Shown here: one piece after another, positions 17,592 to 46,359 of the stretch
How the letters are laid out: the number at the start of each line of letters is the position of its first letter
Numbering within the stretch: position 1 is the first letter of the stretch
From: Humisphaera borealis
GTDB lineage: Bacteria > Planctomycetota > Phycisphaerae > Tepidisphaerales > Tepidisphaeraceae
Assembly: GCF_015169395.1 (NCBI RefSeq)
Contig: NZ_CP063458.1
Coordinates: 3,286,001 to 3,350,000, forward strand
DNA length: 64,000 nucleotides
Reading direction: 5' to 3'
Notes under the pieces: generated by a model
Seen by the model: only the letters and a program-made list of their open reading frames with translations
Told to the model about the DNA's origin: nothing
Databases searched by the model: none
Translations under genes and position numbers: made by a program

Positions 17592-19271
17592 TCATTCGCC
17601 GGCCATACCGGCGGGGCGGCCCTGCTCGTAGATGCTCCTGATTTCCTCGGGCGTCATCGCCCGCGACAGGATCGCCAGCTCGTCCAGGCGACCCTGCAGA
17701 AACCGCGGCGATTCGCCTCGCCAGTTGCCGATCTCCGCCATGCCGATGGACATCGGCACCGGTGTAAACGCTTCGCCGGTCGAAACGACCTGGCCGTCGA
17801 GAAAGCTTCGAACGTTCTTGCCATCAAAGGTGGTCGCCAGCAGCATCCACCGGCCGAAGCGGTCTGGCGTTGCCACGGGAGGGCTGTTGAGCGCTTCCCA
17901 GTTGGGGTCGTTGGGCCTGCCCGATTCCCGGGCAATGCCGATGCGCAGGCCGCCCTTGTCGGTCAGCCCCCAGCGTAGCGTCCCCGGCGACAGGCTGTCT
18001 GGCGCCAACAGGGCGTGATACACGTTCGGCAGTGCGTCAACCCGAATCCAGGCGATGAACGTGACGGCGGTGAACTTGCCGGGCACCTCCACGCGAATGC
18101 GGTCGCCGGCGCTTTTGAACTCCACTGCCCTGCTGCCCGGCCAGCGGCCGTCGGCCCAGCCGCAACCGACGATGCTTCCCGAGGCCGGCTGGGTTGCGCC
18201 GGCGGCGCGGTTCCACACCGATCGTTCCCAGGGGTTCTGATCGGCGAACGCCAGGTGCAGCGCCGTCGCCGGGTCTCGGCTGATCGCCGACGCCGCGCTC
18301 TGCCAGGCTTCCTTCCGCCGCTGAACATCGCCGGATGCCATTTGCGCCAGCTCGTTTTCGCCAAGAAAGCTGCCGCGGCTGGCGGCGATCGATTGCAGAC
18401 CCTGCGGCTCGATGCGGGTCGCCTTGCCTGCGGTCAGTTTCGTCGGCGGCGAAGTCGTTCCAGCACGGCTCACTTCCACCTCGCCGGTGAAGACATGAAC
18501 CTCCGGCACGCCGACCGGCGGAACACTCACGCCGAACTCAGTGCCCAGATCGACGAGCGTGAAGCCGGTCGCCGCGACCCGAAAGCCCCGCGCCGGCACC
18601 GGCACATAGCCCGAGAGCCGACCGCTTCGGCAGAACACTTCCATGTCGGAGACGATCTGAACATCCGCCGGCCCCTGGATGACGAGTCGAGCCCCGCTGT
18701 AAAACTCGACCTGCACCGCACCAGATTCGAGCCGGATCGTGCCGGCCGGCAGCACCTGCCCGATTTCGAAGTTCGCGCCCCGTGCCCACCGCGCATCCAC
18801 CGCCGATACGAGCACGGCGACACCGGCGGTCTGCGTTGCAGGCGGGGCGATCACCCCAAGCTGCGAGCCCGGCGAAGGCAGATCCTGCGAGTCGCGCAGC
18901 AGCCAAAACGCCACCAGCCCGATACAAGCCGCCGTCGCGACGAACCATGGAAGCCAGCGCGACCGCCAGACCGGCCCGCCGACAGCGGTCTCCTTGCGCG
19001 ATGCGACCGATCGTACAGCCGGCGACACCTCGCGATCACCCTCGGACACCTTGGGCGTGCCCGCCTCCCCGGCCATCTGTCGGCCCCATTGCTCCTGTCC
19101 CCACCGGGCGAGCAACGAATGCACGCGCGCCTTATCCCAGAACGCCGCCCGGGCCTGCGCCGACGACAGCAGCGTCCGCTCCAGTTCGGCGCGGTCGTCT
19201 TCCGAGAGCGTTCCGGTGTAGTACTTCTCCAGCAGGACATTGAGGCGGGGGTCGGTCATGGGGTCGGTCAT
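17592..19271 (-). CDS. FecR-domain membrane protein with LamG-type C-terminal domain
   Basis: A 559-residue protein. Residues 1-60 look like an anti-sigma N-terminus (LLEKYYTGTLSEDDRAELERTL). There is one membrane helix at ~106-125 (WLPWFVATAACIGLVAFWLL). A FecR-type region follows, with FEIGQVLPAGTIRLESG, GPADVQIVSDMEVFC, TGFTLVDLGTEFGVSV and VHVFTGEVEVS. The last ~200 residues form a LamG/concanavalin-like domain (FTAVTFIAWIRVDAL, RFLQGRLDELAILSRAMTPEEI). The start overlaps the sigma factor stop as ATGA. In planctomycetes such proteins pair with ECF sigma factors; the outer LamG domain could sense glycan, which fits the GH81 gene downstream. Confidence 0.88.
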   Translation of the reverse strand: MTDPMTDPRLNVLLEKYYTGTLSEDDRAELERTLLSSAQARAAFWDKARVHSLLARWGQEQWGRQMAGEAGTPKVSEGDREVSPAVRSVASRKETAVGGPVWRSRWLPWFVATAACIGLVAFWLLRDSQDLPSPGSQLGVIAPPATQTAGVAVLVSAVDARWARGANFEIGQVLPAGTIRLESGAVQVEFYSGARLVIQGPADVQIVSDMEVFCRSGRLSGYVPVPARGFRVAATGFTLVDLGTEFGVSVPPVGVPEVHVFTGEVEVSRAGTTSPPTKLTAGKATRIEPQGLQSIAASRGSFLGENELAQMASGDVQRRKEAWQSAASAISRDPATALHLAFADQNPWERSVWNRAAGATQPASGSIVGCGWADGRWPGSRAVEFKSAGDRIRVEVPGKFTAVTFIAWIRVDALPNVYHALLAPDSLSPGTLRWGLTDKGGLRIGIARESGRPNDPNWEALNSPPVATPDRFGRWMLLATTFDGKNVRSFLDGQVVSTGEAFTPVPMSIGMAEIGNWRGESPRFLQGRLDELAILSRAMTPEEIRSIYEQGRPAGMAGE

Positions 19272-19891: not shown

Positions 19892-19960
19892 CGTTCGGCA
19901 ATATTGACGCGGGGCGGCGGAACCTTAGCAGTCGTCGAACAGGAATTGGGGAGCAAAAAA

Positions 19961-20047
19961 CGGAGGAGCAGGGATTCGAACCCTGGAGACCCTTACGGGC
20001 CTACCGGTTTTCAAGACCGGCGCAATCGACCACTCTGCCACTCCTCC
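19961..20047 (-). tRNA. tRNA-Ser (anticodon UGA)
   Basis: Read on the minus strand it begins GGAGGAGTGGCAGAGTGG, has the anticodon stem-loop CCGGTCTTGAAAACCGG with anticodon TGA, a long variable arm (GGCCCGTAAGGGTC) as expected for a class II tRNA, the T arm AGGGTTCGAATCCCT and the closing strand CTCCTCC plus discriminator G. CCA is not encoded. A T run follows. The tyrosine integrase gene begins 142 nt from its 5' end, which marks this tRNA as the likely neighbour of the insertion site. Confidence 0.96.
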
Positions 20048-20188
20048 GAATTGTCGGAAAATCCTGCATTTTCAGGCGTTCTCCATCGCTTGGCCGGGAC
20101 TTCATTTCCCCGTTTCCCCTTTTCTTTCCCCTATTCGATGCCTAGAATGAGGTGAAAGGGCCGGGAATTCTCAGCGAAGGAAGGCATT

Positions 20189-21412
20189 ATGCCACGGGTT
20201 GCTAAACTTGGGAAGCACAAGGGGCAATGGTGCACCAAGGCCGGTAACCCGAGCGGTGTCTACTTTGGCCGCATCGACGAGGTGCCGTTCCGCGACGCCC
20301 AGAAGCTGTTCCGAACCTACCTCGACTCCCTCCACAAGCCGAAGCCTGTCGCCGCCACCGGGATCACCACGGCGGAACTGATGGACCAGTTCCTGGCATG
20401 GATGGAGAGCTATCGCTCCGACCGAACGTTCGGCGAGCGTAAGCAGCACCTGTCCCGATTCGTCCACTTTGAAAAGGGGAAAGCGCTGGTCGCCGACACC
20501 CCGGCGACGGCCATCGACGCCGACGACCTGAAGGGTTTCCTAACGTACATCCGCGAGCACGACTTTCAGGACGAAAAGTGGGCCAAGCGAAAAGCCCCGC
20601 TCGACCCGTTCACGGTCGGAAAGTACCAGACCAGCATCATGGCCTGCTTCGCCTGGGGAGCAGGGAAGAAGAACCCGAAGCCGTGCTTGCCGAGGGAGTT
20701 TTACCCGTTCCACGGCATCGAGCGGCACAAGAACCCGCCGGCCCCGCTGCTGGAGACCGAGCTTCCGACAAAGGACGAGATCGCGGCGCTCATGGAGCAC
20801 GCGGACGACGACCTCGCCATCGTGAAGGAGAAGAACAAGTACCGCAGTCGCCGACCGGAGGAGTTCCGGGCCGACCACGAGTACAAGGGCTTCCGCGACC
20901 TGCTCACCGTTTACCACCAGACCGGCGCCCGCACGTCCGAGCTGGCTGATGCTCTGGTCGGCGAGTTCGTGAAGAGCGCCGGGCAGATCGTGCTCGGCAA
21001 ACACAAGCGGTCGAAGACGCAGAAAGAGTCCGCTGCCCGGCGGATCACGCTTTCCGGGGAGTCGCTCGCAATCGTGCGGAAGCTGTGCGACGTGCGGAAG
21101 TCGGACGAGCCGATCTTCACCGACCAGAAGGGGCGGGGGTGGAACCGGTACACGCTGGACATGCGGTTCAAGCAGGTTCGCACGCGTGCCAAGGTCCGGG
21201 ATGACATCACGATCTACTCGTTCCGCCACCTGTGGATCTCGGAAGCATTGATGGCCGGCATCGACCCGGCCACGGTCTCCAAGATGGCGGGCACCTCGAT
21301 CGCGATGATTGAGAAGGTGTACGGGCACTACCGCAACGACCACTTTGCCGACGCCCAGAAGAAGCTCATGGACGCACGATCCGCACGTAGCGAGACTGGT
21401 ACGGCCGCGTAG
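20189..21412 (+). CDS. int: Tyrosine recombinase (phage-type integrase)
   Basis: A 407-residue integrase. It has an N-terminal arm-binding-like segment (HKGQWCTKAGNPSGVYFG), a core-binding domain (MDQFLAWMESYRSDRTFGE) and a catalytic domain. Catalytic residues: Arg in TGARTSEL, Lys in GKHKRSKTQ, the Arg-His of IYSFRHLWI, and Tyr in KVYGHYRND. The ATG follows GAAGGAAGG. It is the first gene beside tRNA-Ser and would insert or excise the element. Its 3' end overlaps tail to tail with the excisionase-like gene by 47 nt, unusual for an int/xis pair and a possible source of antisense control. Confidence 0.93.
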   Translation: MPRVAKLGKHKGQWCTKAGNPSGVYFGRIDEVPFRDAQKLFRTYLDSLHKPKPVAATGITTAELMDQFLAWMESYRSDRTFGERKQHLSRFVHFEKGKALVADTPATAIDADDLKGFLTYIREHDFQDEKWAKRKAPLDPFTVGKYQTSIMACFAWGAGKKNPKPCLPREFYPFHGIERHKNPPAPLLETELPTKDEIAALMEHADDDLAIVKEKNKYRSRRPEEFRADHEYKGFRDLLTVYHQTGARTSELADALVGEFVKSAGQIVLGKHKRSKTQKESAARRITLSGESLAIVRKLCDVRKSDEPIFTDQKGRGWNRYTLDMRFKQVRTRAKVRDDITIYSFRHLWISEALMAGIDPATVSKMAGTSIAMIEKVYGHYRNDHFADAQKKLMDARSARSETGTAA

Positions 21413-33056: not shown

Positions 33057-33476
33057 TCAGAGCTCGATCACTTCGATGACTACTTCTACCGCATCCGTTC
33101 TGTAGCGCGAGCTCGAATCCGATTCGCTGACCCACGGCACACGATGCCGGGTCAAACCCTCAAACAGGCGGGTGCCGCGTGCGGATTCGGCGTTCAGTCC
33201 GCTGCCGCGAATCGTGATCTTTCGGCCGGCGGCGTGGAGGGTGATGCCCTTATCGGGGTCGTACTCCATCTGGTCAATGAAGCTGTAGTTGATCGCCAGA
33301 ATCTGGCCGGACTTCTTCCGCAGCTCCAGGCAGACCGCACGCTCGCGGACGCCACGAAGCCAGCCGTAGTCGCCGAGGTCGTCAACGCCGTCATGGTCGG
33401 TCAAGGTGGCCGGCGGCGGCTCGGTCTCTCGCCGAACGGTGTATTTATCCAGCAGGGTCGTTGTTCTATCGCTCAA
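33057..33476 (-). CDS. Hypothetical protein coupled to the relaxase
   Basis: A 139-residue protein whose start overlaps the relaxase stop by 11 nt. It looks mostly beta (CLELRKKSGQILAINYSFIDQMEYDP, ITLHAAGRKITIRG, TDAVEVVIEVIEL). Proteins like this, with a short dyadic beta core, often travel with MobF relaxases in non-enteric elements and are uncharacterised. Translational coupling suggests a role in the relaxosome or in relaxase control. No known domain. Confidence 0.7.
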   Translation of the reverse strand: MSDRTTTLLDKYTVRRETEPPPATLTDHDGVDDLGDYGWLRGVRERAVCLELRKKSGQILAINYSFIDQMEYDPDKGITLHAAGRKITIRGSGLNAESARGTRLFEGLTRHRVPWVSESDSSSRYRTDAVEVVIEVIEL

Positions 33477-36123
33477 GGGCCACCTCCCGTTCTTGGTGCG
33501 GATGTAATGACAGCGCGGGCGGGTGCGGTTGGAGTTGATCGCGCGCGATTCGGTCGGTTTCGATGATGCGAACGCGGTCGCGAGGATCCGCCAGCAACTC
33601 CGTTGCCGTCTGACGGTCGTCGGTCCTTGTCACCGCTTCGAGCAGTGCCCGCTTATCGTCGGTATGAATGGTGACGCGGGACTTGCCGCGTGACACCGAC
33701 ACATAGAACTGTTGCTGGGACGAAGCCGGCAGCGATTCGGCGGACTGGCCGAGGATCACATGGTCCACGCTCTTGCCCTGGGACGCGTGCGACGTCGTGA
33801 CGTAGCCGTGTGCGAGGTGGCCGAAGTCCTTCGAGACGACCCAGCCGTTGCTCAGGCGAATGTCGCCCTTGGCAGTGAATCCCGCCACGGTATACGTCGC
33901 GCCGTTGTTGAGGCGCTGGCCGCCGAGCGTCTTGCCGTTGTGGGTGATGCGGATCACTTCGCCTTCGGCGACGGCAAGTTCGCCGGACTCAAAGACCGTG
34001 AACCGAGCCGCCTGATCAAGCGGCAGGGGCTGGCCGGTCATCGTCAATTGGTCGCCTTTGCGATGTCCCTTGGCGTTCTGGTGGAACACGATGACGCTGT
34101 CCGGCCCGTAGCGCACCGGGTCGGCGCGCTCGGCCTGCGTCAGATTCGTATTCCGCAGCACCTTCACAGTGCGTTCGTTCGGCTTGAGCCGGCCGAGGTG
34201 TTGGAGCTTCGCGCGGATTTCGGCGGTGATCTTCGCCGCCTCGCGATGGGTCGGTGACACCACCAGCGCCGACTCTCCGGCGGCGACGGACGACACGTAA
34301 TCCGCCGCCAGGTGCTGGTAACGGTCCTGTTCCGGCGATTCCTTGATCCAGCCCAGTTCGTCGAGCCGTTTGAAGCCCTCAGCTACTCGCCCTTCGCTTA
34401 CAGCCCTTACCGCTTGTTTGTACTGCCCCTTCTGCCGCTGGATGTCGCGAATCTCCGTCGGCACGCAGCCGGCTTCGGTTTCCAGCAGGCGAAGGGCCGC
34501 GCCGCGTTCGACGCTGCCGTGCTGGCGCTTGTCGCCCATCAGAATGACGCGCGCATGGAGGTCGCGGGCGAGGTCGAACACCTGCCGCATGGCCTTGGTA
34601 CCCAGAAGCCCAGCTTCATCGATCCACACGATCTGCCCGCGAATCTTCTGCTGCAACTCGGTATCGACCAACAGCCGAGCCACCGTGTCGGCGGCTGCGA
34701 ATCCCTCCTGTTCCCGGAGCACGCCGCGACTGGCGTCGGCGCTGGGGGCGAACGCGAAGACCTGCCGGCCGGTCTTTTCGATGGCCTCGACGGCCTCTTT
34801 CATCATGGAGGTCTTGCCGACACCGGCCGCGCCACGCACCAGAACCACGCGATCGCGCGAGGTCAGCACATGCTCAACCGCCCTGCGCTGGTCGGCGTTG
34901 AGCCAGTCCCGCTCGAAAACGTGCGGCGACTGGCTGATCGGGACGCAGGCCCCTCGGCCGGCGCGGGCAAACTCAATCATCCGCTTCTCTTCCTCCAGCA
35001 CCTGCGGCGTGGTGATCATCGTCCGGCCGTCTCGGGTCGCGCTCAGGTAATCGCTGCGCCGGTAGGCTGCATGGATCGACCGTTCACTCGTTTGCCCCAG
35101 GCTGCGCTTCATCGCCACGGCAAGCAGGTCGCGCTCAGGCACTACGCTCTTTCGCTCGAAACAGTGCTCCGTCGCCTGCTCGATCGCGGCAGTTGCGAAC
35201 TGCGGCGACATCCGGACCGGTTCCGCGCCAATCCGTCCGGCTACGGCGTCAAATGCGTCACGGTCCCCCTCGCCCAGCCGTGACGCCCACTCGGCCCGCA
35301 ATTCGTCCATCGTCAGGTTCTTCGCCTTGCGAACGCGCGTTTTCGCTCCCAACTCGCTTTTCGCTTTGGGGTCGTTGATTCCTTCGGCTTCCGCTTTGGC
35401 CTCGATCTGCGTGGTCCGCCGGGAAAACGCGGCGAGCAACGCACGGTCCGACATCCCGGCAATCTCGTACCCGTTGCCGGTTCGCTCCACTGCCAGCCCG
35501 AGATCGCCAAGGTTCTCGGCCATGCGGGCGTGGAAGACCACCTCAAAGTAGGACGCGTCGCGCTTCAGGCCGGCGAACTGGCCGGCTTTCCAGCGCTGCT
35601 CGACTGGGTCGTGCGTGGCCGAGAAGACGAAGCAGTGCGCGTGCAGGTGCGGATCGGGGACGCCGTCCACCGGCCGCGAGGTGAAATGGACGAACTCGCC
35701 CCAGACCATGTTGCCCGTGGTGCGGTCTTCATTGCTGCCGCCAATGCGGACGCGAGCCTGCATCTCGCGCTCCATATCCGCCATCGTGGTGCCGACAGCG
35801 TCGCGGAAGGCGTCCAGAATCCGCTCGTCGTTCGTCAGCCCGTATAACAGCGAGACGCTCTTTGGGACGTGGAAGTTGAAGTCGTAGCCGACTCGGCGGT
35901 TGGTTTGATTCGTTCTCGCCGTGAGTCGCTCGCTGGTGTTCGGGTCGAGATTCTGGCACAGCGCGTCCCATTGGGCCTTCTGAATGTCGCCGGACAATCC
36001 CAGCCGCTCGGCACCCAGCCCGTGCCAGCGCCCGCTGAGTTCCTGGCCTTCGGTGTAGTAGTCTGCCGTCGAGTAGTAGCTCATCGCACCCGCGGCGGAG
36101 GTGTTCTGCGTGATCCGGAGCAT
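33466..36123 (-). CDS. MobF (TrwC/TraI-type) relaxase-helicase
   Basis: An 885-residue two-domain protein. The N-terminal relaxase has candidate nicking tyrosines Tyr16/Tyr17 and Tyr22/Tyr23 in AMSYYSTADYYTEG, the motif FNFHVPKSVSLLYG, and the metal-binding three-His motif PDPHLHAHCFV (His159, 161, 163). The C-terminal RecD-like SF1 helicase has Walker A VRGAAGVGKTSM (about 429-440), Walker B IVWIDEAGLL (about 498-507) and the late motif YVTTSHASQGKSVD. It would nick oriT, stay linked to the strand and unwind it. It is shorter than F TraI because the extra C-terminal domains are absent. The coupled 139-residue gene follows. Confidence 0.95.
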   Translation of the reverse strand: MLRITQNTSAAGAMSYYSTADYYTEGQELSGRWHGLGAERLGLSGDIQKAQWDALCQNLDPNTSERLTARTNQTNRRVGYDFNFHVPKSVSLLYGLTNDERILDAFRDAVGTTMADMEREMQARVRIGGSNEDRTTGNMVWGEFVHFTSRPVDGVPDPHLHAHCFVFSATHDPVEQRWKAGQFAGLKRDASYFEVVFHARMAENLGDLGLAVERTGNGYEIAGMSDRALLAAFSRRTTQIEAKAEAEGINDPKAKSELGAKTRVRKAKNLTMDELRAEWASRLGEGDRDAFDAVAGRIGAEPVRMSPQFATAAIEQATEHCFERKSVVPERDLLAVAMKRSLGQTSERSIHAAYRRSDYLSATRDGRTMITTPQVLEEEKRMIEFARAGRGACVPISQSPHVFERDWLNADQRRAVEHVLTSRDRVVLVRGAAGVGKTSMMKEAVEAIEKTGRQVFAFAPSADASRGVLREQEGFAAADTVARLLVDTELQQKIRGQIVWIDEAGLLGTKAMRQVFDLARDLHARVILMGDKRQHGSVERGAALRLLETEAGCVPTEIRDIQRQKGQYKQAVRAVSEGRVAEGFKRLDELGWIKESPEQDRYQHLAADYVSSVAAGESALVVSPTHREAAKITAEIRAKLQHLGRLKPNERTVKVLRNTNLTQAERADPVRYGPDSVIVFHQNAKGHRKGDQLTMTGQPLPLDQAARFTVFESGELAVAEGEVIRITHNGKTLGGQRLNNGATYTVAGFTAKGDIRLSNGWVVSKDFGHLAHGYVTTSHASQGKSVDHVILGQSAESLPASSQQQFYVSVSRGKSRVTIHTDDKRALLEAVTRTDDRQTATELLADPRDRVRIIETDRIARDQLQPHPPALSLHPHQEREVALER

Positions 36124-41838: not shown

Positions 41839-41872
41839 GCTTACCTCCGCGTGCTCGGTTTTCACGGTCCTA

Positions 41873-41888
41873 CCCCGGCGTACCGGGG
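41873..41888. promoter_or_regulatory. Palindrome CCCCGG-CGTA-CCGGGG in the ardC leader
   Basis: A perfect 6-bp stem with a CGTA loop, 141 nt before the ardC start codon. A very similar palindrome (CCGCGG-AGTA-CCGCGG) lies at 43124-43139 before the next gene. The shared form CCSSGG-NGTA-CCSSGG suggests a common operator or RNA hairpin. Confidence 0.45.
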
Positions 41889-42029
41889 CCCCTTCTCCGA
41901 CGGTTCCACCATGAAAACCTGCGCGCGCTCCAGTCTTTCGCGCCTCCGACGAGGCAAGGCCCCCGATGTGGGAGCCACCGTGTGGATGTTCCGCACGGCC
42001 CGGGCCTCGAAGACACAAAGGAGCGCGAT

Positions 42030-42905
42030 ATGTCATTCGATATCTATGCAACGATCACTCAGCAGGTCACGGACATGCTGGAGAAGGGCGTCGCCCCGTG
42101 GCGCAGCCCGATCCTGGGACGGACTTCCGCCGGGCACCCGAAGAATCTGGACAGCGGCAAGCCCTACCGGGGCGTGAACGTCTTCCTGCTGGCCTTCACC
42201 GCCTATGCCAAAGGGTATGAATCCAGCTACTGGGTGACCTTCAACCAGGCGAAGGATCGCGGAGGGTCGGTGAAGAAGGGCGAGAAGGCGTCGATGGTGG
42301 TGTTCTGGAAGCAGTACGAGACCGAGGACAAGCAGACGGGCAAGGAGACGAAGATCCCCGTGCTGCGCTACTACAACGTCTTCAACGCCGCTCAGTGCGA
42401 AGGACTGGAGGTGCCCGACGCACCGAAGTTCGAGCCGATCGACTTCAAGCCGGTCGAAGTGGCCGAGGCGATCGCCAAGGGATACCAGGGGGCGCCGGCG
42501 CTGGAGCACGGCGGGAGCAAGGCCTTCTATCGTCCCAGCGATGACAAGGTGCGGATGCCCGAGCCGACGCGCTTTGCAAGCGGCGAGGAGTACTACTCGA
42601 CGCTCTTTCACGAGTACGCGCACAGCACCGGACACTCCAGCCGGCTCGATCGCAAGCTCGACACCGATCCGAAACCGTTCGGGTCGGCGGATTACGGCAA
42701 GGAGGAGCTGGTCGCCGAGATGGCCGCCGCGTTCCTGTGCGGGCACGCCGGGATCAACCCGGCGGTGATCGAGAACCAGACCGCCTACCTGCAGGGATGG
42801 CTCAAGACCCTCAAGTCAGACAAGAAGCTCATCATCAGCGCCGCCGGTCAGGCGCAGAAGGCGGCGGATTGGATCAGAAACGAGCGTGAGCCGTTTGCGC
42901 CGTGA
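42030..42905 (+). CDS. ardC: ArdC-type antirestriction protein with zincin domain
   Basis: A 291-residue protein from the ATG at 42030, with GGAG six nucleotides upstream. The N-terminal ArdC/DUF1738 domain has ATITQQVTDMLEKGVAPWRSP, GKPYRGVNVFLLAF, YWVTFNQAKDRGGSVKKGEKAS and VLRYYNVFNAAQCEGL. The C-terminal zincin-like peptidase domain has FHEYAHSTGH (HExxH with third ligand region) and AEMAAAFLCGHAGI. ArdC of plasmid pSa binds single-stranded DNA and protects entering DNA from restriction; both domains are intact here. Fits a role just after transfer. Confidence 0.93.
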   Translation: MSFDIYATITQQVTDMLEKGVAPWRSPILGRTSAGHPKNLDSGKPYRGVNVFLLAFTAYAKGYESSYWVTFNQAKDRGGSVKKGEKASMVVFWKQYETEDKQTGKETKIPVLRYYNVFNAAQCEGLEVPDAPKFEPIDFKPVEVAEAIAKGYQGAPALEHGGSKAFYRPSDDKVRMPEPTRFASGEEYYSTLFHEYAHSTGHSSRLDRKLDTDPKPFGSADYGKEELVAEMAAAFLCGHAGINPAVIENQTAYLQGWLKTLKSDKKLIISAAGQAQKAADWIRNEREPFAP

Positions 42906-43339
42906 GCGAGGCGATGGGGGATCGCTTTGGAAGGAGCGAGGTCACTTCTGCCTGGGGGGACGCTGTCACACAGCGAGCGGCATGGCCCCTGCCCTGCCCG
43001 AATCATCACAAGACAAAGCACGAGACGCTCTGCCGCGCCGAAGAAGGACGGCCTTACGGCCGGCGGGACGTGAAGTGCGGGAACGGCTCCGGCGCGTCAA
43101 GGGCTTCGCGAGAATCCCGGTCTCCGCGGAGTACCGCGGACCCTCCGGGATTCTCGTGCCTTCGGTCCAGCTTCGCTTCCCCTTCGGCACCCTTGACCCG
43201 CCTCCGGGCCGCCCCCGCCGTGGCCCTGGCCACGAAGGCAGTGCCGCTGGCCCTGCCTTCAAGCAGGCCGACTCGGATTCTTCCTTCGGCAGAGTGCCGG
43301 GGAGCCGAGAGCCAAGCCACACCCCTTCCCGGAGGCCTT
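42906..43339. other. 434-nt structured leader between ardC and the ParB-like gene
   Basis: The reading frame stays open here only because of high GC; no domain can be read and the next gene has its own strong ribosome binding site at 43331. The stretch contains a nested set of inverted repeats (43091-43202) and is a candidate untranslated or structured RNA region. Confidence 0.6.
43091..43202 (+). promoter_or_regulatory. Nested three-level inverted repeat (candidate structured RNA)
   Basis: Outer arms GGCGCGTCAAGGG (43091-43103) and CCCTTGACCCGCC (43190-43202) pair at 12 of 13 positions. Middle arms CGAGAATCCCGG (43109-43120) and CCGGGATTCTCG (43145-43156) pair perfectly. The inner pair CCGCGG (43124-43129) and CCGCGG (43134-43139) closes an AGTA loop. 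The right half between middle and outer arms carries Pro/Ser-codon-like CTTCGGTCC...CTTCGGCACC words that could form a side hairpin. Could be an RNA regulator, an attenuator or a DNA cruciform. Confidence 0.55.
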
Positions 43340-44974
43340 ATGTCCCGCCCGTCCGAATCCCGTATCAAGGACATCGCGCTCGTCGAGATCGACCGTTCCC
43401 GCAACCACCGCATCCCCACGCCCGGCGACGCCGAGCGGATCGAATCGCTCAAGGCGAGCATCGAGGCGTGCGGACAACTCCAGCCCGTCCGCGTCTATGA
43501 ACGCGGCGAGGATCAGAAGAACGGCAGGAAGGATGCCCCGTATATCCTTGGCTTCGGCTCCCGCCGGTTGGCGGCGGTGGAGTTGCTGGGATACGAGACG
43601 ATCCGGGCGGTGGTCTTCCCGCCCGCGTCCGACGCCGAAATCGCCCAGGCCCGGGCCGTCGAGAACCTGCACCGCCAGGACATCACCCCGCTGGAGGAAG
43701 TGCTGGCGGTGTCGGACATGCTGGAGGCGATCAAGGCCGATGTCGCCTTCACCGGCGATCCTTATGAAGAAGTCGCGAGCCGCCTCGCCCGCTCGGTGAC
43801 ATGGGTGCGGGATCGGGATTACCTGCACCGGCTGACCAAGGCGGTGCGGAAGTTCGCGTTGCAGAGCGGACTGCCCGCCGGTCATCTTCGCGAGCTGGCG
43901 AAGGTGGGTGACGCTGGCGATCAACTACGGCTGGCGTGCGAGTGTGCCGGGGCACCGGCGTGGTGCTTCGCGGCCCAGGAAGAAGGGAAGGATTTGGCAT
44001 CCCACAATCAGGATGTCATCGACGGCTACTTCGCCGAACTCGCCGACGGGAAGGCCAACCGCTGGCCGCTCTCGAAGCTCAAGCTGGAAGTCGCCAAGGT
44101 GCAGCACTCGCTCAAGGTGATCCCTTGGGAGTTCGATCGGACGGTGCAGCATCACGGCGTAAAGCTCCGCAAGTGTGCCGGGTGCCCGCACAATTCCGAG
44201 ACCGATCGCACGCTCTTCGGCATCGACGAGGACGCCGCCAACCCGCGAGGCTACTGCCTCAACGCTTCCTGTTACACCGCCAAGCAGGAGGCGACGCAAT
44301 CGGCGAAGGAAGAGGTGTACAAGAAGATCAGCGGGCGGGAGGTGCAAACGCCGGAGGCGATCCGCAAGGCCGCACCGCCGTGGATCAAGGAGTCGTCGGT
44401 GGTCGGGTATGTCAAGCGGCAGTTGGAGAAGCAGCAGGAGGGCCAATCGCCGACCGAGTCGCGGTCGTCTCGTTCGGAACGTTCGGCGGTCCGCTCTCTC
44501 TCGCCGCACGAGCTCGCGTTGGAGGCGTTCCGCGAAGAGCTCGAGTCGTGGCAGGGCAAGTCGCTGGCGAAGGTGCTGCGGAAGGTCAACGCCGACCCGG
44601 CGTGCAAGGTCGGCTGGTGCGTGCTGCTGGCGGTCGATGGATTCCTGGAGCATCCCCGCATCGAGATTCCCTATACCAGTATCTACAGCAGCCCGAGCAC
44701 ACGGGAGCCGGTCATTCCCGACATCGACCCGGCGATGGAGAACGTCATCGCCAGGGCGTTCGCCGGCACGAAGTCGGCATGGATGGAACTGCTGGCCGAT
44801 GAGAAGCCGACGCTCCCAGAGAACCGACGCGGCTACGGCGTGCCGCACCCGCAGGTGTTGGCATGGCTGGCGGCGGCGGTGGGCGTGAAGTTGCCGCCGA
44901 CGCCGCAGTGGACGCCGGCAGCAATTCCGGAGTCCCTGCCGTCCAACGAGCCAGTGGCCGACGTCGCGGCCTGA
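43340..44974 (+). CDS. Large ParB/RepB-type nuclease-domain protein with Cys cluster
   Basis: A 544-residue protein from the ATG at 43340 (GGAGG five nucleotides upstream). The ParB-like domain has IVEIDRSRNHRIPTPGD-like start, QLQPVRVYERG, YILGFGSRRLAAVELLG and AVENLHRQDITPLEEVLA; a KorB-like helix region follows. At about 275-315 a cysteine cluster appears: KLRKCAGCPHNSETD and GYCLNASCYTAKQE, probably one zinc. The C-terminal 200 residues are helical. ParB proteins with such a cluster are common in integrative elements and differ from the chromosomal type; they may regulate genes or fix DNA rather than partition. Different from the 271-residue ParB at 25.2 kb. Confidence 0.85.
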   Translation: MSRPSESRIKDIALVEIDRSRNHRIPTPGDAERIESLKASIEACGQLQPVRVYERGEDQKNGRKDAPYILGFGSRRLAAVELLGYETIRAVVFPPASDAEIAQARAVENLHRQDITPLEEVLAVSDMLEAIKADVAFTGDPYEEVASRLARSVTWVRDRDYLHRLTKAVRKFALQSGLPAGHLRELAKVGDAGDQLRLACECAGAPAWCFAAQEEGKDLASHNQDVIDGYFAELADGKANRWPLSKLKLEVAKVQHSLKVIPWEFDRTVQHHGVKLRKCAGCPHNSETDRTLFGIDEDAANPRGYCLNASCYTAKQEATQSAKEEVYKKISGREVQTPEAIRKAAPPWIKESSVVGYVKRQLEKQQEGQSPTESRSSRSERSAVRSLSPHELALEAFREELESWQGKSLAKVLRKVNADPACKVGWCVLLAVDGFLEHPRIEIPYTSIYSSPSTREPVIPDIDPAMENVIARAFAGTKSAWMELLADEKPTLPENRRGYGVPHPQVLAWLAAAVGVKLPPTPQWTPAAIPESLPSNEPVADVAA

Positions 44975-45298
44975 ATCCCGGCGTCACATCGCAATCATCG
45001 CAATCCAAGGGCCGGTCGCCGCAGGTGATCGGCCCGCATTGTTGTCTGGTCGGTTGGTTGTCATCGACCTCTCGTTCCAGGTGTTGCCGAGCGCCGCCAC
45101 GGCCTTCTTGATGGGCACTCTCAAGCCCCCGTCGGGCGGGTCAACCTGCCAAGGCCGCTTTCCTGCCGGCGAGCCGGCGGAAGCCTTCGGCCTTTCGGTG
45201 GACCCGTTCACGGATCGTCCCGACTCGGGGGGCTTGGCGGGTCGTGCCATCAGGCCGCGGTGGTCGCGGGCTGTAAACACCAACGAAAGGAATCGATC
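44975..45298. other. Gene-free 324-nt leader with hairpins
   Basis: No credible gene. A hairpin GGGCCGGTC (45009-45017) with GATCGGCCC (45027-45035) lies 35 nt after the ParB-type stop and may be a terminator without a T run. A second small palindrome GCCGGCGAGCCGGC lies near 45163. Structured leaders precede three consecutive genes of this region. Confidence 0.5.
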
Positions 45299-45520
45299 AT
45301 GACCAACAACTCCCAGGACAACACAGCCGCAGCGGCCTCCAAGACGCCCAGCCACATCGCCTATCAGGTTCGAGACGGCAAGGACAAGGGATTCTTCACG
45401 CGAATCGGTGCGGTCTGGCCCCACGCCGACGGCAATGGATTCAATGTGCTGCTCGATTGCGTCCCACTCGACGGCCGCATCACCCTTCGCATCGCCTCCG
45501 ACAAGAAGGACGCTCAATAA
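45299..45520 (+). CDS. Small conserved mobile-element protein
   Basis: A 73-residue protein from the ATG at 45299 (AGGA seven nucleotides upstream). A polar N-terminus is followed by IAYQVRDGKDKGFFTRIGAVWPHADGNGFNV and LLDCVPLDGRITLRIA. The pattern (R-x-G-x-x-W-P-H-x-D-G-x-G-F, then L-D-x-x-P-x-D-G) is found in small proteins of many plasmids and integrative elements. Function not known; a single-strand DNA or envelope-independent role cannot be judged. Confidence 0.75.
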   Translation: MTNNSQDNTAAAASKTPSHIAYQVRDGKDKGFFTRIGAVWPHADGNGFNVLLDCVPLDGRITLRIASDKKDAQ

Positions 45521-45582
45521 ACCCGGCGGGCGGGCTTCGCCCCGCGAAGCTCGCCCGACCCTCAACGAGAAAGGACTCTCCC

Positions 45583-46359
45583 ATGACCCAACGCTCCATC
45601 ATCAACCCGTTCTTCGCCGCCCGCACGTCGCGGAAGGCAACGTCTCCAGCGCCGCTGAGAATGCCGGCCCTGCTCAAGCCCGAGCAGCCGATCTATGTCA
45701 AGCTGCCCCGGGCACCGATCAACGCCAGTCCGGTCCCTCACTTGACGAGCCTCTACTCCAGCCCCGTCGCCGGTAACTACGGCAGCCGTGCCTACCCTGG
45801 CAACTGCGGCGGGAACCTCATCAAGGACCTGATCCGCTTCTACGACCCCAAGAGTGTCTTTGACCCGATGACCGGCAGCGGAACCTGTCGAGACGTCTGC
45901 CGCGAGATCGGAGTCTACTGCTGGTCGAGCGACCTACACGAAGGTGCCGACGCCTGTGACGCGAGCGCGTTTCCGCGGGATTGCTTCGAGTTCGCCTGGA
46001 TTCATCCGCCGTACTGGCGGCAGAAGCTCTACACGATGGATTCGAGGTGCCTGTCGCGTACGCCGACGCTGGAGGCGTTCCTTGACCGATACCGGCTGTT
46101 GATCGCCAACTGTGCCGGTGCTCTGAAGCCCGGCGGAAGGCTCGCCATTCTCATGGGCGACTATGTCGACCGCGATGCCGGCTTCGTTTCGCTCACCCAT
46201 CACACGAAAGTGCTGGCCTTTGAGCTGGGACTGCGGCAGTGTGCCACCGACATCATCCGTTTCAGTCACGGGGCGTCGAGCGGGCGCAAAGTCTATCGCT
46301 CCAGCTTCATCCCGGGCCTGCACGATGTGTGCATGATCTTCGAGAAAGGAGCGAAGTGA
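45583..46359 (+). CDS. Orphan DNA (N4/N6) methyltransferase-like protein
   Basis: A 258-residue protein from the ATG at 45583 (AAGGA upstream). The SAM-binding motif I is SVFDPMTGSGTCRDV (usual form DPxxGSGT), with an acidic residue ending the next strand (CWSSDLHEG). The catalytic motif IV is WIHPPYW, an SPPYW-like rather than DPPY form, which favours N4-cytosine or a variant amino-methyltransferase. LKPGGRLAILMGDY follows. No restriction enzyme is nearby, so it likely protects the element or regulates it. A modification target other than DNA is possible because motif IV is atypical. Confidence 0.8.
   Translation: MTQRSIINPFFAARTSRKATSPAPLRMPALLKPEQPIYVKLPRAPINASPVPHLTSLYSSPVAGNYGSRAYPGNCGGNLIKDLIRFYDPKSVFDPMTGSGTCRDVCREIGVYCWSSDLHEGADACDASAFPRDCFEFAWIHPPYWRQKLYTMDSRCLSRTPTLEAFLDRYRLLIANCAGALKPGGRLAILMGDYVDRDAGFVSLTHHTKVLAFELGLRQCATDIIRFSHGASSGRKVYRSSFIPGLHDVCMIFEKGAK

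Follow-up and report, generated by a model that had tools for sequence, protein, structure and literature searches.

The hairpins that precede the ardC and parB genes of a mobile element in the planctomycete Humisphaera borealis are, as comparison with related genomes has shown, the tips of larger leader structures that are conserved, covarying and non-coding, and that have no counterpart in Rfam. By the same comparison the structure in front of ardC, referred to here as motif A, is common to two unrelated gene types. We put the probability at about one half that these are cis-acting structured 5' mRNA leaders of mobile-element genes, whose action as RNA and regulatory role we infer. Timely expression during transfer is essential for antirestriction genes, whose control in the mobile elements of little-studied phyla is poorly understood. 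A folded leader common to ardC and PF05635 genes and absent from Rfam represents a concrete, testable planctomycete control element, and also one where experiments can separate RNA function from single-stranded DNA function.

The integrated element and its genes

The window, a stretch of 64,000 nucleotides, covers positions 3,286,001-3,350,000 of a 7.19-Mb single-contig genome. A 40-bp direct repeat, with its left copy (20009-20048, no strand assigned) inside a tRNA-Ser gene (19960-20048) and its right copy outside the window (72585-72624), brackets approximately 52.6 kb; both copies are probable att sites. An integrase gene (20189-21412) adjoins the left copy, and the element also encodes a TrwC-type relaxase-helicase identified by Pfam search (33466-36123, minus strand), a TraG/VirD4-like coupling protein and a ParA. 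On the plus strand lie an ardC-type antirestriction gene (42030-42905) with ArdcN (PF08401, E 4e-36) and MPTase-PolyVal zincin (PF18818, E 3.5e-39) domains, a PRTRC/Noc-like ParB-like gene (43340-44974) whose ParB_N match falls below the Pfam cut-off, a 73-aa gene (45299-45520) to which the gene list and Pfam search assigned no function, and a DNA-methylase-like gene (45583-46359) with a weak N6_N4_Mtase match, below cut-off. Because the tRNA-Ser repeats are accompanied by genes for an integrase, a coupling protein, a relaxase, and ArdC, ParB-like, methylase-like and ParA proteins, the 52.6-kb region is an integrated mobile element, probably a conjugative or mobilizable one.

No close relatives of the ParB-like protein came up when its sequence was searched against genome contigs, plasmids and phages. 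No oriT was located in the element; a candidate next to the relaxase gene of a second genome, G015, which carries the parB leader and is placed in the same family as the window genome, was dropped, there being nothing conserved that matches it within the window.

The ardC leader and its relatives

Motif A occupies 41848-41930 on the plus strand and scores 85.0 bits with model R3. Its tip hairpin, CCCCGG-CGTA-CCGGGG at 41873-41888 (P2, 41873-41878/41883-41888), stands exactly where the initial annotation had placed it, 141 nt upstream of the ardC ATG (42030), and is followed by a conserved CCCCTTCTCCGACGGTTCCACC. That annotation had missed what encloses the tip, namely a longer stem (P1, 41857-41867/41909-41919) and an outer helix (P0, 41848-41854/41923-41929).

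Searching 397 relatives with the ArdC protein turned up 27 places at E < 1e-30. Motif A precedes eight ardC genes in Phycisphaerae, the window included. The seven distinct leaders outside the window (L107 being a repeat of L106) belong to ArdC proteins that are 54-73% identical, and together with the window they follow the pattern NNGTGCTCGC.GTCAAGG - tip hairpin - CC.C.TC.CCG.CGGTTCCACC - TGAC.GC..GCGCNN. The tip hairpin is 4 to 9 bp long in these copies and differs in sequence between them, with pairing kept. In the leaders of most more distant ArdC genes, motif A was not apparent. A search with R3 found further copies, at 34-38 bits, in three genomes of another planctomycete family; P0 and P1 are recognisable in each, while the middle part differs. 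The downstream gene there, where readable, is of the PF05635/TIGR02436 (23S_rRNA_IVP-type) family, one gene being unread at a contig end. In every copy with a readable gene, motif A lies on the sense strand directly upstream of an ardC or PF05635 gene, and its 3' end is about 13-31 nt from the ATG of the latter. The PF05635 genes behind motif A are found at L132-L137, with at least five copies in genome G408, two of them in L137.

Covariation was assessed on 13 sequences, comprising the eight ardC copies and five from the other planctomycetes, the latter all interrelated members of one family and three of them from one genome. Pair counts were taken on MAFFT alignments and R3 was used only for finding copies, since its inner four P1 pairs and P2 are one column off, P0 and the outer P1 being correct. 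P0 and P1 are paired in 93.2% of cells, and 7 of the 17 pairs have changed on both sides. The covariation score is 0.173 vs 0.044 +/- 0.017 for shuffled alignments, and 0/500 shuffles match the pairing or the score, a test that is inflated by the kinship of the rows; slid controls preserve that kinship and are still far below motif A, with just 24-52% paired. One P1 pair (13-80) is unpaired in 7/13 copies, and a P0 T-G pair is invariant on the sense strand in 13/13. The consensus folds at -25.6 on the sense strand vs -21.7 on the template strand, and the sense strand has two A-C mismatches, each in single copies.

The parB leader and other folded leaders

Motif B, the parB leader element, occupies 43091-43202 on the plus strand and is defined by inverted repeats, folding, a match of 113.8 bits in a second genome and a partial third copy. 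The tip CCGCGG-AGTA-CCGCGG at 43124-43139 (apical hairpin, 43124-43129/43134-43139) and the two outer arm pairs reported by the initial annotation are all present as described, P2 being a perfect 12-bp stem (43109-43120/43145-43156) and P1 pairing at 12/13 positions (43091-43103/43190-43202). The motif carries an invariant GGACCCTCCG. The suggestion that these stems are more than chance also holds, as 43085-43210 folds with an MFE of -72.5 kcal/mol (z -6.18) that is equalled by 0/200 shuffles. The picture of three concentric stems was right in the nesting and too simple in shape: because a fourth stem, P3 (TGCC/GGCA, 43157-43160/43186-43189), branches beside P2, the predicted fold is nested and resembles a three-way junction. 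Strong hairpins are common in the host genome, and several ordinary intergenic gaps have more negative z; stability alone is therefore insufficient, and it is conservation that distinguishes these leaders.

The 434-nt gap before parB is indeed gene-free. Upstream, the parB frame stays open as far as 42902, a length with a chance of about 16% there, and a protein-coding gap was ruled out by a codon-position GC that is flat upstream of parB (0.66/0.69/0.71 vs 0.67/0.47/0.85 in parB) together with stops in the corresponding frame of G015. A conserved protein frame across the gap was looked for and none was found. No Rfam family was matched by any of these leaders at E up to 1.

The only full relative of motif B is in G015, where the ParB is 67% identical and a divergently oriented relaxase gene, not ardC, lies upstream. 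The block from 43092 to about 43262 aligns with the G015 leader, with approximately 78% conserved over the alignable part, and its kept 3' end is a hairpin GAAGGCAG..CTGCCTTC at 43234-43260 (plus strand, inverted repeat I14). Between the two genomes a P2 G-C pair has become A-T with pairing kept, and the tip stem reads as having lost one base pair, apparently through one deletion on each side. A partial third copy in G054, upstream of a 90-aa gene, consists of the P2 stem with invariant CGG-CTTCC...GCGGACCCTCCG; with 19.4 bits and E 0.08, it owes no less to the sequence match than to the score. Compensatory substitutions, whose absence from homologous leaders had been named beforehand as the outcome that would speak against the structures, are thus present in both motifs, few of them in motif B with its two or three sequences, two of them full. 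The proposed covariance search for 43091-43202 (R1), applied to 392 genomes of the phylum and 397 of the class, gave clear matches in the window and G015 only. A gapped DNA pattern in GTDB genomes hit the G015 contig and five others without model-score support, a pattern match at L062 proved on full reading to be coding, and viral contigs contained no copies of the parB leader.

In both full copies, an invariant CCTCC of the leader (43141-43146) is complementary to the parB Shine-Dalgarno GGAGG (43329-43333), and sequestration of this site by the leader is possible. Reading by eye also revealed, in both genomes, two mutually exclusive hairpins that share a CTGCCTT arm (43234-43270 and L053 ~18385-18420).

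The likeness of the two consecutive leaders, which had drawn attention at the outset, stands in part. A GTCAAGG/CCTTGAC inner stem occurs in the ardC-leader relatives and in the parB leader, and the two tips in the window share GTACCG.GG.CCCT. Compared directly within the window, however, the leaders show weak similarity (p ~0.03), and we therefore prefer to keep them apart as two motifs; a joint alignment was poor and was dropped. Judged from these letters, kinship is plausible.

Further folded leaders accompany such genes. The 73-aa gene is preceded by motif C, a long imperfect hairpin at 45118-45245 (plus strand); sequences related to its core (45131-45205) occur in G116 and G697 and include an A-T/G-C double change. 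A 13-bp hairpin with one G-T pair (45527-45557, plus strand) stands 5' of the methylase-like gene. Leaders with a GTCAAGG...CCTTGAC stem occur at L119:2669-2815, before an 85-aa gene, and at L125:10783-10930, before a 130-aa gene; the product of the 85-aa gene is similar to the 90-aa protein behind the partial motif B of G054. A leader after ardC at L101:2529-2613 (= L125:5874-5958) weakly matches sRNA-Xcc1 (RF02221; 36.8 bits vs a cut-off of 53) and lies upstream of a small gene whose product is HTH-like by eye. Taken as leads, these cases suggest that such elements habitually carry folded leaders.

Messenger leader, single strand or palindrome

The leaders would fold at the 5' end of the mRNA and so govern expression of the gene behind them; the simplest route would be control of ribosome access or polymerase readthrough. 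The folded molecule could alternatively be single-stranded DNA, and the strand on which each motif folds better bears on this choice. Motif A is probably transcribed, because the ~13-31 nt between it and the PF05635 ATG have no space for a separate promoter, and it is this nearness that leads us to prefer RNA, with moderate confidence, and to rank single-stranded DNA next. For motif B the template and sense folds are -36.3/-35.4, -25.8/-17.2 and -24.2/-18.1, so the template is better in all three copies, since A-C mismatches in the sense strand are G-T wobbles on the other; this preference is a misfit with a sense RNA. With motif A leaning to the sense strand and motif B to the template in these predicted folds, no one simple rule reconciles both. 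As a tentative second choice, then, the leaders lie in a leading region and fold in the transferred strand, which would be the template, as it enters the recipient, acting as an Frpo/ssi-type promoter or another single-stranded site serving early antirestriction genes. The template preference of motif B fits this choice, as do the ArdC, ParB homolog and methylase-like genes on one strand, which match leading regions (PMC11541004, PMC7736820), and the earlier suggestion that STAXI, found near antirestriction, SSB and integrase genes, is single-stranded DNA (PMC2864571). On the other hand, consensus scans of both leader regions found no -35/-10-like pair, a test to be read with the caution that planctomycete promoters may differ; the search located no oriT from which the direction of transfer could be read; and motif A, which itself leans to the sense strand, also stands before genes of another kind, the PF05635 genes. 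It seems doubtful that leaders with a GTCAAGG/CCTTGAC core, spread over several genes of one planctomycete element family, form a whole superfamily acting in the entering single strand and switching on antirestriction genes before second-strand synthesis.

The remaining readings start from the palindromes themselves. A REP-like hairpin, GGGTC-G-SCGG-TACN-CCGS-AGACC, occurs about 124 times in the host genome, mostly in inverted pairs ~50 bp apart; the genome also has 11 Y1_Tnp matches, and the tips could be host REP-type palindromes or derivatives without a role of their own. A REP model built from dispersed copies only ranks the parB tip first in the window (28.1 bits, E 3.6e-6; 43119-43143) and the ardC tip second (17 bits, E 0.013; 41873-41888), both on the minus strand, with E-values that are optimistic because the family was discovered by searching with the leaders' own tip pattern. 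A relative's repeats have a GTAG head and the parB tip a GGAG. Against this, ardC tips in other genomes are not REP-like, the REP model misses the G015 parB tip, and REPs leave unexplained the outer helices (P0, P1) that are conserved and covary across genomes; once the ardC-leader relatives were found, REP was demoted from main explanation to an unlikely one. Either the REP-like tips, seen in this genome only, were shaped by or exchanged with host REPs, or they are a coincidence aided by the search route. Among the host copies (e.g., C1 2455316-2455386, L063-L082) the S positions covary, and related GTAG-headed repeats occur in G016 and G006 (L088-L097).

Proteins of the ParB family recognise ~16-bp palindromes and are frequently autoregulatory, and each of the two tips is a 16-bp dyad with GTA at its centre. 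That they are double-stranded operators, for instance sites of the ParB-like protein, is nevertheless highly improbable, as tip sequence and length differ among relatives yet stay paired, and genomes with motif A need not carry this ParB, only two doing so at high identity. Of the two possibilities originally offered, structured RNA or a protein-binding cruciform, what survives is a structure under selection, whereas a double-stranded protein-binding palindrome is disfavoured by the variation of the ardC tip. We attach equally little weight to terminators or attenuators of the preceding gene. The hairpins are GC-rich, and strong hairpins are frequent in intergenic gaps here; however, the sense strand in the window has no T-tract behind the stems, and the parB element holds its position beside a different upstream gene, the divergent relaxase, in G015.

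Likeness to known systems

REP/RAYT palindromes (PMC3733652, PMC2817692) resemble the tips in being GC-rich hairpins, with GGAG adjoining in the parB leader, whereas the tips lie inside longer conserved helices, occur once per leader and are not REP-like in other genomes. In the leading regions of F-like plasmids, folded Frpo/ssi elements lie 5' of antirestriction, ParB and methylase genes on one strand (PMC11541004, PMC7736820). The leaders described here are likewise folded and upstream of such genes on one strand; they differ in having no -35/-10 pair or oriT located, and motif A also precedes PF05635 genes. STAXI, too, is a conserved structured element near the antirestriction and DNA-handling genes of mobile elements, for which RNA and single-stranded DNA are both still considered; it is a tandem pseudoknot (PMC2864571), whereas our leaders are nested helices. 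sRNA-Xcc1 matches, weakly, the post-ardC leader of one relative and not the leaders in the window; such elements may thus contain several types of folded leader.
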